Positions 55,590 through 60,493 of a stretch of DNA of 64,000 nucleotides are shown one piece after another. The stretch comes from Prolixibacter sp. NT017 (GTDB lineage Bacteria > Bacteroidota > Bacteroidia > Bacteroidales > Prolixibacteraceae): positions 1,984,001 to 2,048,000 of the forward strand of contig NZ_BLAV01000001.1 of the NCBI RefSeq assembly GCF_009617875.1, written 5' to 3'. Position 1 is the first letter of the stretch; every line of letters begins with the position of its first letter. Made by a program: the position numbers and the translations under genes. A model generated the notes under the pieces. The model had not been told where the DNA came from. It did not search any database and was given only the letters and a program-made list of their open reading frames with translations.

Positions 55590-55620
55590 TTCCTTTTCGA
55601 TAGGGGGATTTTAAAAGGAA
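55590..55620. promoter_or_regulatory. Inverted repeat upstream of the surface-repeat gene
   Basis: TTCCTTTT (55590-55597) and AAAAGGAA (55613-55620) with a 15-nt spacer containing GGGGGA, ending 46 nt before the ATG at 55667. This is a possible operator or part of a sigma-dependent promoter. Confidence 0.35.
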
Positions 55621-55666
55621 GTTGTCACAGCATCGACAAAAGAATTAAAAACGTAAAAGGGAAAAA

Positions 55667-56812
55667 ATGAACAAGATTTATTTCTTATTAGCCACGATGC
55701 TGTTCTTTTTGATCGTTGCAAAAAAATCTGAAGCTCAGACCGAAAAGAAAGCTCAATTGACATTCTTCTACCCCATTGGCTCCTCTGGCCTCAGTTCAAC
55801 TGACCACAATTATAAATTTTCATTCAATACTATCTATGGAATGACTGGTGGTGTGAACGGCTTCGAATTAGGTTCTGTTGGGAATATTGTTAAAGGTAAT
55901 GTGAACGGCTTTCAATTGGCCGGGGTTTTCAACATCGTTGCTGCTAAAAGTACGACTGGAATAATCCAGGCCACGGCGGACACCAGCCAAACAATGAATG
56001 GAGTGCAACTTGCCGGAGTAAGTAATATGGTGAAGGGAAACCAAAAAGGATGGCAAATAGCCGGAGTTTGCAACACAACTACCGAAAACAGTTCCGGCGT
56101 TGTCGTTTCGGGCCTTTCAAACATCACCCGGAAAGATGTAAACGGAGCAATGGTTTCGGGTGTATTCAATTCCGCCAGAACGTTAAAAGGGTTGCAGCTA
56201 TCGACCATTAATATTGCTACGAAACGTGTAAAAGGAGCTCAAATTGGAGTGGTGAATATTACACCAAGAGGAAAGGGATTCCAGTTAGGCGTTGTCAATA
56301 TTGGACAGGCAGTGAGTGACTCCATTATACCTCTCGGGGTGATTAACATTTTTAGGGATGGTTATTATGCTTTCGAATTGTCGACAGATGAAAGATTGTT
56401 CAGCCAGATTTCTTACAAAATGGGAGTCGAAAAGCTATATACCATTTTTCAGTTTGGCGTTAACTTTCGTAACAGTACGCAGTTTTACAGTGCTGGGGCG
56501 GGCCTTGGAACCATCTTTAATATCACATCTAAGCACAAAATCAATCTCGAGCTCATTACTACTCAGTTCTTTGAGCATGATTTTAAATACATACCTGATT
56601 TCCTGAATCAAGCTAATCTGGATTATCAATACGATTTGACCAAACACATCGCGCTAAAAATCGGACCGACATTCAACTGTTATATTGAAAAGAACAGCAA
56701 AAAGACGACCGATCCGTTCCGGATCCCCTATTCGATTATTGAAGGCAAAGGCCGTTATCACACAACCTCCTTATGGATTGGCGCAAACGCGGGAGTAGTA
56801 ATCAAGTTATAA
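55667..56812 (+). CDS. LA_2272-type surface-repeat protein without STN domain
   Basis: 381 residues with a signal peptide ending KSEAQ. Residues ~60-225 contain about eight ~20-residue repeats of the form NGFQLAGVFNIV: GFELGSVGNIVKG, GVQLAGVSNMVKG, GWQIAGVCNTT, GVVVSGLSNITRK, GAMVSGVFNSA, GLQLSTINIAT, GAQIGVVNITP, GFQLGVVNIG. These are characteristic of a repeat family named after Leptospira LA_2272/LA_2273 surface proteins. Residues ~225-381 are beta-rich with strongly alternating strands, consistent with a small outer-membrane barrel or cap. It lies 105 bp before the ECF sigma gene, with no terminator between, and shares its repeat type with the STN protein of that operon. It may be a regulated partner. 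Function unknown. Confidence 0.78.
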   Translation: MNKIYFLLATMLFFLIVAKKSEAQTEKKAQLTFFYPIGSSGLSSTDHNYKFSFNTIYGMTGGVNGFELGSVGNIVKGNVNGFQLAGVFNIVAAKSTTGIIQATADTSQTMNGVQLAGVSNMVKGNQKGWQIAGVCNTTTENSSGVVVSGLSNITRKDVNGAMVSGVFNSARTLKGLQLSTINIATKRVKGAQIGVVNITPRGKGFQLGVVNIGQAVSDSIIPLGVINIFRDGYYAFELSTDERLFSQISYKMGVEKLYTIFQFGVNFRNSTQFYSAGAGLGTIFNITSKHKINLELITTQFFEHDFKYIPDFLNQANLDYQYDLTKHIALKIGPTFNCYIEKNSKKTTDPFRIPYSIIEGKGRYHTTSLWIGANAGVVIKL

Positions 56813-56917
56813 AAACCAAAATCATCATTGTTGCTGCGGATCGGTTTTTCTCATATTTTTATACAACAATTGCTATGTTTCAATATTGAGATCGATTCGC
56901 AGCTACAATCCTTTTGA

Positions 56918-57517
56918 ATGGAAGCTACCGGTACTAATTGGCAAACAAAATCTGGTTTCGAAATATTGTTTAAAAAACACTATTCAATTCTGTGTGCCTA
57001 TGCGTATGGTTTTGTAACGGACTACAGTCTGAGTGAGGATATTGTCCAGGAAGTGTTTTTCAAGTTGTGGACTGACAAAAAGAGAATTACCATAGCAACC
57101 TCCGTTAAGGCTTATCTGTATCAAATGGTACGTAATACGGCTCTTAATTATCTAAAACACAAAAACGTTATAAGACATTATGAAATAGCTAATAAAGATG
57201 AGATAAATTATGTTGGAGAGAGCCTGGATGAACTGCTGATCGGAAAAGAATTGAATGCTAAAATTCAAGCAGCGATTGAGAAATTACCGCCCGAACGCCG
57301 GAAAGTTTTTTTACTGAGCAGGATGGATGGATTGAAGTATAAGGAAATTGCTGAAAAGCTCGAAATATCGATAAAAACCGTCGAGAACCAAATGGGGAAA
57401 GCACTTTCCAGTTTAAGAACGGAACTGGCAGGAGAATCTCCGTTGGTTTTATTTGCCTTGTTTTACGGGGCGCAACCCACAATTGAAAAAACATTACATA
57501 GCCAAAAATGTGAATAA
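56918..57517 (+). CDS. ECF sigma factor (FecI-like, Bacteroidota type)
   Basis: 199 residues. Region 2 (~10-75) reads FEILFKKHYSILCAYAYGFV, then LSEDIVQEVFFKLW (the -10 recognition helix) and KAYLYQMVRNTALNYLK. Region 4 (~115-170) has LPPERRKVFLLSRMDGLKYK and an HTH EIAEKLEISIKTVENQMGKA. There is no region 1.1 or 3, as expected for ECF. It directs RNA polymerase to a small regulon when released from its anti-sigma partner. The start ATG 56918 gives a normal-length protein. Its stop (57515-57517) overlaps the anti-sigma start, indicating translational coupling. Confidence 0.95.
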   Translation: MEATGTNWQTKSGFEILFKKHYSILCAYAYGFVTDYSLSEDIVQEVFFKLWTDKKRITIATSVKAYLYQMVRNTALNYLKHKNVIRHYEIANKDEINYVGESLDELLIGKELNAKIQAAIEKLPPERRKVFLLSRMDGLKYKEIAEKLEISIKTVENQMGKALSSLRTELAGESPLVLFALFYGAQPTIEKTLHSQKCE

Positions 57518-58460
57518 CACGCCGAAACATATCGATGATGCTTTATTAGCCAAATTTCTGTCGGGCGAAGCAACTTTGACCGAAAAGGAAATGGTTTCCG
57601 TATGGATGGAAGAATCGGAGCAGAACCGGGCTTATTTTGAAAGTTTCGCGACCATTTGGTTGAACAGCACGACTGATGAAAGAAAGCGTCCAAACCCCGA
57701 TGTTGCATGGGAGAATGTAGAATCCAGGCTTCGTACACCGATGTACAAAATCATTCTGCCTTACGTGGGAGCGGTCGCTGCCATCCTAATTGTTGCTCTT
57801 TTCCTCTTCACTCCGGAAAAGTCTGACAAAGTAACATTTACAGCCGACAATCAGTCTCAAAAGGAAGTTCTGCCGGACGGAACGGAGGTCATTCTCAATC
57901 CTGGCTCAAAGCTTGACTACTTTTTTAATAAAAAATCAAATATCCGAACAGCCCGCCTGAGCGGAAAGGCCTTCTTTCATGTAAAAAGAGATACGATGCA
58001 TGCGTTTATCGTTGAAACTCTTTATGGCCAGGTAGAGGTTCTTGGGACACAGTTTAAGGTAAATGTAGTAAGAAATGACGGCGTTTATGTTGACGTCCTC
58101 TCCGGTGTTGTGAAGCTTACGAAACCTAAGGTCAATTTCATAACTCTCCGAAAAGGTGAAAGTGGCTTTATCCCTGCCAATGATTACCGGATTAGAGAAA
58201 CCAAGCAAAATCCTTCCGAATTCTTCAGCATCGACAAAACACTTATTTTTAATAATGTGCCGCTGAATAAAGTGTTTTCAAATCTTGAAGAATGTTACCC
58301 AGTCCGCTTTCGTATTGATGAAGGAGTGAATACAAATTTGCGCTTTACGTCTCAGTTTAAAGACAACAGCATTAACGAAATTCTGAATGTAATTGGGCAA
58401 ACCTACGGATTGAGGTATGAAAAATCGAATCATGAATATTATATTACCCTAAAAAAGTGA
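57510..58460 (+). CDS. FecR-family anti-sigma factor
   Basis: 316 residues from GTG 57510. The frame is open further upstream (TTG 57453), but this start overlaps the sigma stop by 8 bp and leaves an anti-sigma domain of the usual length. Order: cytoplasmic sigma-binding domain (~1-70: DDALLAKFLSGEATLTEKEM), one TM (~80-100: YVGAVAAILIVALFLF), FecR domain (~105-205: LPDGTEVILNPGSKLDYFFN, VEVLGTQFKVNV) and the C-terminal DUF4974/STN-like domain (~240-316: LIFNNVPLNKVFSNLEECYP, INEILNVIGQTYGLRYEK). It holds the sigma factor at the inner membrane and receives a signal in the periplasm from an outer-membrane STN domain. It ends in a GTGA overlap with the next gene. Confidence 0.95.
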   Translation: MNNTPKHIDDALLAKFLSGEATLTEKEMVSVWMEESEQNRAYFESFATIWLNSTTDERKRPNPDVAWENVESRLRTPMYKIILPYVGAVAAILIVALFLFTPEKSDKVTFTADNQSQKEVLPDGTEVILNPGSKLDYFFNKKSNIRTARLSGKAFFHVKRDTMHAFIVETLYGQVEVLGTQFKVNVVRNDGVYVDVLSGVVKLTKPKVNFITLRKGESGFIPANDYRIRETKQNPSEFFSIDKTLIFNNVPLNKVFSNLEECYPVRFRIDEGVNTNLRFTSQFKDNSINEILNVIGQTYGLRYEKSNHEYYITLKK

Positions 58461-60337
58461 AGATTAAGCATTTCATTCTGTTCTTTCTGAGTTTTTTGCT
58501 TATCAGTCAAGTGGCAAAAACGCAAAATCTGCTGAATCTTAGGATTACTATTAATGTTCAGAACACAACCGTTGGCGAGATACTCAAAGACATTGAAAAA
58601 CAGGGAAACTTTTTTTTTGCTTACAATCCCGACAATATCGACCAAACCAAAACGGTGTCTCTCTCAGCCCGGGATATCAAAGTCCGCGATGCGCTAAAGG
58701 AGCTGTTTCAACACGAGGCAACGTTCCAGCAAGTCGAGAATCATATCATCATCAACAGTACACCAAAAAGCGAAGCGAAAAATTCATTCCAAATCACTGG
58801 TCACATCGCCAATAGCTCAGACGCTCCGCTGGACTCTGCCATTGTTTATGACCCGGAAAATGAAAAGCTGGTCATTAGCCAAAAAGACGGCTCATTTGCC
58901 TTTGATTTTGACACAAATGATAAAAACATCAGCCTTTTTGTTAGACTTCGCTCGTATAAAGACACGATTATATATGTTACCCCGGGAAACCAGAGAATCG
59001 ATTTGAGATTGCAACGAAGGGAACCTTCTCCCACCGCCCTGACTCCCATCGGAACGGAAGATGCAGAACTGAAACTGAAAGACTTCGAAAACTTATCACT
59101 GGTGCAAAGACTCGTACCTCCGGAAGCAATTTATGCCTCCTCCAATCTTAATACCGAGAAAATAATGCCGGTGCAGTTTTCTTTTTTACCCAAAGCCGGA
59201 ACCAATTCTTTTGTCAAAGGATTAAGAGTCAACCATGCTTCTTTCAATATCCTGGCCGGTTATTCAAAAGGGCTAAGCGGGGCGGAGTTTGGTGGAATTG
59301 CCAATATTATCCAGAAAGAAGCCAAGGGTTTCCAGGCTGCGGGCATTGCCAACGTTGTTTTGGGTGATGTACATGGAACACAATTTTCGGGAATTTATAC
59401 CATGGACCTCAGCAATGTCGACGGTTTCCAGGTAAGTGGTGTATATAACTCCCTGCGGGGTACTATTTCCGGGGGGCAAATCAGTGGCGTTTCAAACACT
59501 GCTATGAAGACCGTCAATGGAGCCCAGGTTGCCGGTGTTTTTAATGTAGCCAAAGGAAAAGTGACCGGAGCTCAGGTAAGCGGTGTGATTAACATCGACA
59601 AGGATGATGTAGCAGGAGTTGAAATTACAGGGGTAGCCAACATTTCGAAAAAAACGGTCAGAGGATTACAACTCGCAGGACTATACAATGAGAGTTCAGA
59701 GATAAACGGTTTGCAGCTTTCCTCGCTAATTAACCTAAACCGAAATAAAACCCAGGGAGTTCAGATAACGACGATTCTAAACACAACGAAAGCTTTAAAC
59801 GGTCTGCAATTGGGGCTGGTTAATATCGCTGATACTATCAACACGGGCTTTCAGGTAGGTTTGATAAACATTGTGAAACACGGTAAATATTCACTTGAAT
59901 TCTCACACAACGAAACCTTCCCAATCGATTTCAATTTTAAGACCGGAAATCCCAGACTATACTCAATCATTAATCTGTCAGCAGGAAATAACAGGCTCGG
60001 ATTTGGATATGGGCTGGGAAGCAATTTTCCATTGAACAAGAAATTTACATTTTGGACTGATGCCAGCAGTACCTCAATACACGATTCTAAAAAACTGACA
60101 ACTCAAGGGCTTAAACTAACCATGAGATATGGATTAAATTATGACCTGTTTAAACATATCAGTCTCAGAGGTGGTATTTCCAAGAACTATTTCATCCCTC
60201 AAAAATCATTGAAAAAAACAACAGGAGAAATTCTGATCGCAAGCAATACCAACCACATTGAAAGAGCGCTTCAGAACGGCAAAAACAGCTTTTGGAGTGG
60301 GTGGTTCTTTGGAATACAGATATCAAACCTATTTTAA
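58457..60337 (+). CDS. STN-domain surface-repeat protein (LA_2272-type) with barrel-like C terminus
   Basis: 626 residues; GTG start 58457 overlaps the FecR stop (GTGA). After a signal peptide (ending AKTQ), residues ~28-100 are an STN domain: TVGEILKDIEKQGNFFFAYN, VSLSARDIKVRDALKELF, HIIINS. Residues ~110-195 form a carboxypeptidase-regulatory-like sandwich (FQITGHIANSSDAPLDSAIV, QKDGSFAFDF). Residues ~270-490 contain about eleven ~20-residue repeats (GFQAAGIANVVLG, GFQVSGVYNSLRG, GGQISGVSNTAMK, GAQVAGVFNVAKG, GLQLGLVNIA). The last ~135 residues alternate like an outer-membrane barrel and end in a terminal Phe (GWFFGIQISNLF). There is no plug domain and no TonB box with transporter barrel, unlike normal FecA/SusC-type partners of FecI/FecR. 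No terminator is visible on the plus strand after it. Confidence 0.85.
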   Translation: MKIKHFILFFLSFLLISQVAKTQNLLNLRITINVQNTTVGEILKDIEKQGNFFFAYNPDNIDQTKTVSLSARDIKVRDALKELFQHEATFQQVENHIIINSTPKSEAKNSFQITGHIANSSDAPLDSAIVYDPENEKLVISQKDGSFAFDFDTNDKNISLFVRLRSYKDTIIYVTPGNQRIDLRLQRREPSPTALTPIGTEDAELKLKDFENLSLVQRLVPPEAIYASSNLNTEKIMPVQFSFLPKAGTNSFVKGLRVNHASFNILAGYSKGLSGAEFGGIANIIQKEAKGFQAAGIANVVLGDVHGTQFSGIYTMDLSNVDGFQVSGVYNSLRGTISGGQISGVSNTAMKTVNGAQVAGVFNVAKGKVTGAQVSGVINIDKDDVAGVEITGVANISKKTVRGLQLAGLYNESSEINGLQLSSLINLNRNKTQGVQITTILNTTKALNGLQLGLVNIADTINTGFQVGLINIVKHGKYSLEFSHNETFPIDFNFKTGNPRLYSIINLSAGNNRLGFGYGLGSNFPLNKKFTFWTDASSTSIHDSKKLTTQGLKLTMRYGLNYDLFKHISLRGGISKNYFIPQKSLKKTTGEILIASNTNHIERALQNGKNSFWSGWFFGIQISNLF

Positions 60338-60407: not shown

Positions 60408-60419
60408 CTTAGGTTTCTG

Positions 60420-60493
60420 TGATCCAGGCGGGACTCGAACCCGCAACCGGCAGCTTAGAAGGCTGCTGCTCTATCCAGTTGAGCTACCAGACC
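60420..60493 (-). tRNA. tRNA-Arg (anticodon TCT)
   Basis: On the minus strand: acceptor GGTCTGG with CTGGATC (three G-T wobbles), D arm GCTC...GAGC, anticodon stem GCAGC/GCTGC with loop CTTCTAA (anticodon at 60457-60459), T arm GCGGG-TTCGAGT-CCCGC. The discriminator is A; no CCA is encoded. It reads AGA codons. Confidence 0.94.

Follow-up and report, generated by a model that had tools for sequence, protein, structure and literature searches.

A FecI/FecR-type gene unit of Bacteroidota with a non-transporter STN protein as its putative outer-membrane transducer

Introduction

Cell-surface signalling through FecR anti-sigma factors is normally tied to TonB-dependent transporters. How could such a system be signalled to if the STN domain encoded beside the anti-sigma factor is carried by a protein that is not a transporter? 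This question is raised by a locus of Prolixibacter sp. NT017 (Bacteroidota; NCBI RefSeq assembly GCF_009617875.1), located in a stretch of 64,000 nucleotides (contig NZ_BLAV01000001.1, positions 1,984,001 to 2,048,000, forward strand) which, at its full length, is referred to here as the window. Between positions 55667 and 60337 of the window four genes stand in line, in the order REP, extracytoplasmic function (ECF) sigma factor, FecR and STN protein. The STN protein, called the fusion below, combines an STN domain with a predicted beta-solenoid and a predicted 8-stranded outer-membrane barrel; REP is a paralogue of its repeat and barrel part that lacks STN. The four-gene unit is real, conserved and widespread in Bacteroidota. 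We consider it rather probable that it constitutes a dedicated, self-amplifying circuit of cell-surface signalling, in which a non-transporter transducer in the outer membrane releases the sigma factor when that membrane changes.

The Gene Unit and Its Conservation

The sigma factor and FecR genes overlap by 8 bp and the FecR and STN genes by 4 bp, exactly as stated in the original prediction, which had been made from the letters of the window. The prediction read these three genes as one unit, and the overlaps support it in this; the fourth gene, REP, was left unmentioned, although it begins the very span under consideration. The window FecR carries FecR_C (PF16344), an STN-like periplasmic end. 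In the window as well as in the other fusion loci, FecR and the barrel protein are encoded by separate genes.

A scan of named genomes gave at least 529 confirmed loci, of which the best 80 were used; this set is biased towards full fusions because the best-scoring loci were retained. The gene order that the original prediction had proposed to look for elsewhere is indeed common: in 68 of the 71 named loci with at least 2.5 kb of upstream sequence, sigma factor and FecR precede the fusion on its own strand, and FecR is visible in all nine loci where that sequence is short. In an even sample of the phylum, a match with E<=1e-20 was obtained in 70 of 198 genomes, in many cases only through STN receptors or REP. 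Ten fusions outside this genome, taken from the 30 best loci of the sample, were inspected, and FecR is upstream in all ten and the sigma factor in nine. Matches at E<=1e-40 were obtained for 14 of the 41 genomes of the window's own family, in some cases through REP only. The loci that retain this gene order belong, by their assignment, to seven orders of Bacteroidota, and the linkage of the sigma/FecR pair to the fusion is far beyond chance. Three Chitinophaga loci (L070, L083, L117) have a complete STN-solenoid-barrel gene, with sigma factor and FecR not found within about 6 kb.

The FecR proteins of these units also hold together as a lineage. In a tree of 97 FecR sequences (those shorter than 250 aa were left out), 75 fusion-unit FecR, that of the window included, fall in one group of 77 rows with a support of 96/92, split from 20 receptor-type FecR; several branches of this tree are long. 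The genome of Prolixibacter sp. NT017 has 19 FecR genes, according to our reading of 28 PF16344 matches, and 17 of the 18 other FecR loci adjoin a Plug-bearing protein. The eighteenth (L119; G000:C1:4336500-4342500) adjoins an aspartyl protease/PDZ protein and is a second FecR unit lacking an adjoining TonB receptor. Its order is sigma factor, FecR, aspartyl protease/PDZ protein, a 508-aa CarboxypepD_reg protein and an MG2-domain protein; the protease/PDZ and 508-aa proteins match an STN plus CarboxypepD_reg profile, the former not being a Pfam STN match. As a separate observation, a contig labelled Azovibrio (Pseudomonadota) encodes a FecR that hardly differs from the one of a Bacteroidota locus (L101, L063); it is probably a mis-binned metagenome-assembled genome.

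Table 1. Features of the unit and its surroundings, in window coordinates.
Feature	Position	Strand	Remarks
Promoter-like motif TAGGGGGA-N14-TGTC	55601..55626	+	40 bp from motif end to REP start codon
REP	55667..56812	+	381 aa; LA_2272-type beta-solenoid and 8-stranded barrel (predicted), without STN; signal peptide (by eye)
ECF sigma factor	56918..57517	+	199 aa; TIGR02985 171.3 bits (cut-off 126.4); PF08281, PF04542
FecR anti-sigma factor	57510..58460	+	GTG start; PF04773 56.3 bits, PF16344 52.7 bits, both above cut-off
STN-solenoid-barrel protein (fusion)	58457..60337	+	626 aa; GTG start
STN domain of fusion	58532..58759	+	aa 26-101; PF07660 24.7 bits, below cut-off 28.4; beta-alpha-beta pattern in model
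CarboxypepD_reg-like domain of fusion	58781..59032	+	aa 109-192; CarbopepD_reg_2 20.5 bits, below cut-off 32.2
Beta-solenoid of fusion	59255..59884	+	aa 267-476; about 12-13 coils of 16 residues; predicted periplasmic
8-stranded outer-membrane barrel of fusion	59885..60334	+	aa 477-626 (predicted); long loop between strands 7/8; C-terminal Phe
tRNA-Arg	60419-60493	-	downstream of unit

Domain Composition and Predicted Fold of the STN Protein

The fusion gives no match to Plug or to a TonB barrel among its domain matches up to E=1. In an alignment of 60 members that includes the window protein, STN is found in 48, CarbopepD_reg_2 in 49 and Plug in none. The original prediction, in denying the protein a plug and a 22-strand transporter and in giving it a barrel-like C-terminal end, agrees with these counts and with the structure model, in which the repeats run straight into strand 1 of an OmpA-like 8-strand barrel.

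On the repeats themselves the prediction has to be corrected. Some eleven repeats of about 20 residues had been proposed, and the unit is actually one of 16 residues, G-x-Q-x-x-G-x-x-N, for which the NCBI model NF047436 scores 21.0 bits on the fusion, below its cut-off of 25. The repeats had also been placed on the cell surface. As they stand directly before barrel strand 1, the usual topology of such barrels would place them in the periplasm instead, and the solenoid is therefore predicted to be periplasmic and not surface-exposed. The sole long outer loop of the modelled barrel, between strands 7 and 8, measures about 29 residues.

A Promoter Motif Tied to the Lineage

The unit has a promoter motif, TAGGGGTA-N14-TGTC, which was counted mainly with the strict pattern TAGGGG[TG]A-N13..15-TGTC. 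It was first read from the upstream sequences of nine loci, so its count in those nine is not independent. The strict pattern gives 76 sites, distributed over 47 of the 80 loci and without exception on the locus strand, against none for the reversed control. All 76 have the spacing N14; on the locus strand of the 80 loci, spacings of 9-13 and 15-21 give no site and a spacing of 8 gives one. Most sites (65/76) lie within 200 bp upstream of a gene for the sigma factor (24), REP (19), a TonB receptor (17), a DUF2807 protein (3) or an acyltransferase (2). The remaining 11 comprise, by their position, five between the sigma factor and FecR genes, four at the beginning of the sigma factor reading frame, one by REP and one after the fusion (L055). 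A relaxed pattern is noisier, with 97 matches in the 80 loci versus 11 for its reversed control.

Beyond the 80 loci, the strict motif is present in five of eight loci of the phylum sample and in two of five of the window's family, always with N14; these counts leave out L124, L130 and L132, which duplicate L056, L039 and L047. The window contains a single match, that ahead of REP (0.01 expected). The whole genome (5.14 Mb), searched with spacings N11-15, gives two matches and one for the reversed control: the site before REP, and one at 723345 that no clear gene follows. No strict match occurs in 240 kb of loci that have REP only, nor in the 85.8 kb that make up the other 18 FecR loci of Prolixibacter sp. 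NT017. A generic FecI promoter was considered and rejected on the latter count, L119 giving one weak relaxed match. The motif is thus tied to this lineage and not to FecR loci in general, and it would be recognised by the sigma factor of the unit.

Searches of entire genomes are less clean. In 36 genomes there are 84 matches versus 20 for the reversed control, and 53 of the 84 lie within the fetched loci; 29 of the 31 outside matches were fetched for inspection. Ten genomes searched earlier, a set that shares one genome with the 36, gave 28 matches versus 14, of which 19 are motif copies of the locus. Many outside matches may be due to chance, and so may single outside targets such as LpxA, since their density is near that of the control. 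Among off-locus sites, the motif precedes look-alike outer-membrane-like proteins in four Chitinophaga genomes (L235, L239, L240, L243; the one checked is DUF6268) and, in L251, a receptor with Plug. In the genome of L118, where the locus has neither REP nor DUF2807, another contig carries a REP-like gene (NF047436 20.7 bits, below cut-off) as well as one for DUF2807 (145 bits), each preceded by the motif. In a Niastella genome (L261, G240:C1:2641860) an unlinked motif stands 116 bp before the first possible lpxA start codon; the LpxA downstream (TIGR01852, 328 bits), weighed as a possible target, is a single case, again near control density.

The STN-less Paralogue and Neighbouring Genes

REP matches NF047436 with 38.2 bits, above the cut-off, and shares the predicted solenoid and barrel of the fusion. 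Its AlphaFold2 model has a mean predicted local distance difference test (pLDDT) value of 87, and the barrel (residues 229-381) resembles in fold OprF (Z 14.4), NspA (13.2) and OmpA (13.0). No REP relative was found in the viral contigs searched. The idea that REP carries the sigma/FecR linkage was rejected: neither sigma factor nor FecR occurs in any of 20 REP-only loci, examined over about 5-6 kb on each side and less at contig ends, which means that the linkage follows STN and not the repeats. These 20 loci come from family f23, in which our sample showed no fusion. Matched coil numbers of fusion and REP, which would have pointed to co-assembly, were likewise rejected, as the two numbers, from a rough pattern count, do not correlate (Spearman 0.11, n=55, p=0.44). 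In 14 of the 20 f23 loci (L139, L141-L145, L147, L149-L151 and L153-L156) a gene for a PagL-type lipid A 3-O-deacylase is found in the vicinity of REP (the one checked has PF09411 at 35.1 bits), a proximity that may represent one inherited neighbourhood.

The neighbours in the 80 loci were grouped by BLAST clusters. A DUF2807 gene is present in 28 loci versus 0.77 expected, and a lipid A acyltransferase in eight versus 0.34 expected, the expectations being taken from 15 genomes of the same class (45 PF10988 and 20 PF03279 matches, respectively, in 58.5 Mb) and scaled to 1.0 Mb. The acyltransferase excess has a Poisson P of 3e-9, or of 4e-4 if counted as four lineages, and the gene has its own upstream motif in L043 and L057. 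Two DUF2807 and three acyltransferase members were scanned with Pfam, all scoring well above cut-off. Downstream of the unit in the window, an open frame is found on the minus strand, as is the tRNA-Arg gene (Table 1).

Relation to Known Systems

With the FecI/FecR/FecA-type systems, such as FoxI/FoxR/FoxA and PupI/PupR/PupB, the unit shares a FecI-like ECF sigma factor, a FecR with an STN-like C-terminus, an STN domain on an outer-membrane protein, and overlapping genes. It differs from them in that its STN carrier has a predicted solenoid and 8-stranded barrel in place of plug and 22-strand barrel, in that its motif is missing from the other FecR loci of this genome, and in that the genes bearing the motif are mostly outer-membrane components. 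The fusion is equally distinct from SusC-type receptors with STN and NTE domains, having neither plug nor transporter barrel. Its 16-residue repeats, together with the score of REP, relate it to the LA_2272 surface-repeat/VC2662 family; the NCBI model, however, spans the repeat alone, and the fusion adds STN and the sigma/FecR pair.

In role, the nearest analogue would be the Dma anti-sigma factors, in which an outer-membrane barrel with a reach across the periplasm likewise serves to control an ECF sigma factor. Dma is described as one polypeptide with an intrinsically disordered tether and a C-terminal outer-membrane barrel, whereas the bridge proposed here would consist of two proteins, FecR and the STN-solenoid-barrel protein, giving a two-chain design that includes a rod. 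A Dma-like protein of Phocaeicola has been linked to envelope stress and to a longer O-antigen (PMC9308784), and Dma itself to vesicles (PMC13088901).

Databases name individual members 'STN domain-containing protein' or 'LA_2272 family surface repeat-containing protein', and the name 'STN and carboxypeptidase' occurs in PMC12893687. No description of this circuit was found in the open-licence literature, a scope outside which most subscription journals lie, and the searches made returned no account of homologues as ordinary transporters. The idea of a non-canonical trans-envelope sigma/FecR circuit, put forward in the original prediction, is upheld by the plug-free STN carrier and the conserved gene order.

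Proposed Mechanism and Alternative Explanations

In the circuit that we favour, the transducer would be a small barrel with a periplasmic beta-solenoid rod, tipped with the CarboxypepD_reg-like and STN domains. At rest, STN would grip the periplasmic STN-like end of FecR, which would be spared proteolysis and retain the sigma factor. This resting hold is modelled on two systems: in Fox the STN of the outer-membrane protein binds the anti-sigma factor even in the absence of a signal and protects it from proteolysis (PMC11637429), and in Pup STN stabilises the anti-sigma factor, the solved complex being proposed to form before the signal (PMC7186176). The trigger may be a change in the state of the outer membrane, for example in the assembly of barrels or of lipopolysaccharide (LPS), or the binding of a periplasmic ligand to the rod. 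STN would then let go, FecR would be cleaved, and the freed sigma factor would read the TAGGGGTA-N14-TGTC promoters, yielding more of the circuit, REP and other outer-membrane components. The same parts as in Fox and Pup, minus the plug, suggest that a change of barrel or rod, and not uptake driven by TonB, brings about the release, and the circuit is probably independent of TonB.

Several points weigh against this proposal. It is important to note that the whole circuit rests on computation, which covers the gene unit, its domain make-up, the absent plug, the predicted fold, the conservation and the tie of motif to lineage. The sigma factor and the motif are linked by association. The strict motif is missing from 33 of the 80 loci, and 23 have no motif by any of three patterns; the 31 matches outside fetched loci in the 36 genomes do not greatly exceed the 20 reversed-pattern matches. 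The acyltransferase cases amount to about four lineages, and at the window locus itself a single motif accompanies the four genes, and none of the adjoining genes encodes a TonB receptor, a DUF2807 protein or an acyltransferase. Moreover, two non-fusion FecR (L060_T and L119_T, of unsure placement) sit inside the 77-row group, and the three Chitinophaga loci noted above have the fusion without sigma factor or FecR.

Among the alternatives, ordinary transporter signalling might be spread over two proteins, an adjoining STN-less TonB-dependent receptor sensing the ligand and signalling through the separate STN-solenoid protein. Such a receptor cluster (about 798 aa) is indeed found on the same strand in 30 of the 80 loci, with two further opposite-strand copies. 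The six receptors scanned, three from the 80 loci and three from others (L095, L047, L097, L019, L134, L136), all match CarboxypepD_reg and Plug, the latter above cut-off in three, and none matches STN; the strict motif precedes 17 of the 30. An upstream motif, however, makes the receptor look like a target and not a sensor, and the receptor profile gives no match in the loci most closely related to that of the window (L039, L040, L130, L131), nor in seven Chitinophaga and four Dyadobacter loci, so that we regard this explanation as improbable, if worth keeping in mind. Somewhat less credit is given to a circuit that gauges the supply of REP or barrels, STN protein and REP pairing or competing in the outer membrane with feedback on barrel assembly. 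REP has the same solenoid and barrel, is near the fusion on the same strand in 44 of the 62 loci that extend 4 kb or more to either side, and carries the strict motif in 19 of 55 same-strand cases; the coil counts, on the other hand, do not co-vary and give no sign of matched stacking.

That the fusion is a surface-exposed protein sensing contact or adhesion, as the original prediction had supposed, or an external ligand, seems to us distinctly unlikely. The NCBI name 'surface repeat-containing protein' would favour it, as would the DUF2807 neighbours, whose Pfam title is 'Putative auto-transporter adhesin'; a DUF2807 protein of Porphyromonas gingivalis is reported as an adhesin (PMC10949514). 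DUF2807 has nonetheless also been merged with the Toastrack domain of the PSP/Lia stress systems (PMC11237479); the predicted topology keeps the repeats in the periplasm and leaves a single long loop outside, and the neighbours and motif-bearing genes suggest upkeep of the outer membrane rather than adhesion. Finally, STN could be a relic in a protein that no longer signals to FecR, in line with the sub-threshold Pfam scores of the window's STN and CarboxypepD_reg and with the three loci that have the fusion without FecR. Given the overlapping genes, an order kept across seven orders and the presence of STN in most aligned members, we hold this to be very improbable.

Implications for Bacteroidota

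If the self-amplifying circuit is as proposed, the same inner parts combined with a non-transporter would make the STN-FecR contact separable from the effects of transport. According to the Fox study, it is unclear how the signalling domain of the receptor spans the distance to reach the anti-sigma factor (PMC11637429). It is conceivable, and we advance it tentatively, that a rigid solenoid carries STN from the barrel to FecR as a TonB-independent bridge, and that a private promoter code tunes the outer membrane, including lipid A acylation, which would give this phylum a means of outer-membrane and LPS homeostasis with a sigmaE-like role. A rod of countable coils makes the reach of STN directly testable. 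The motif, in turn, offers a ready read-out of the regulon, and the kinds of gene that bear it hint at the way in which the outer membrane may be monitored in Bacteroidota.

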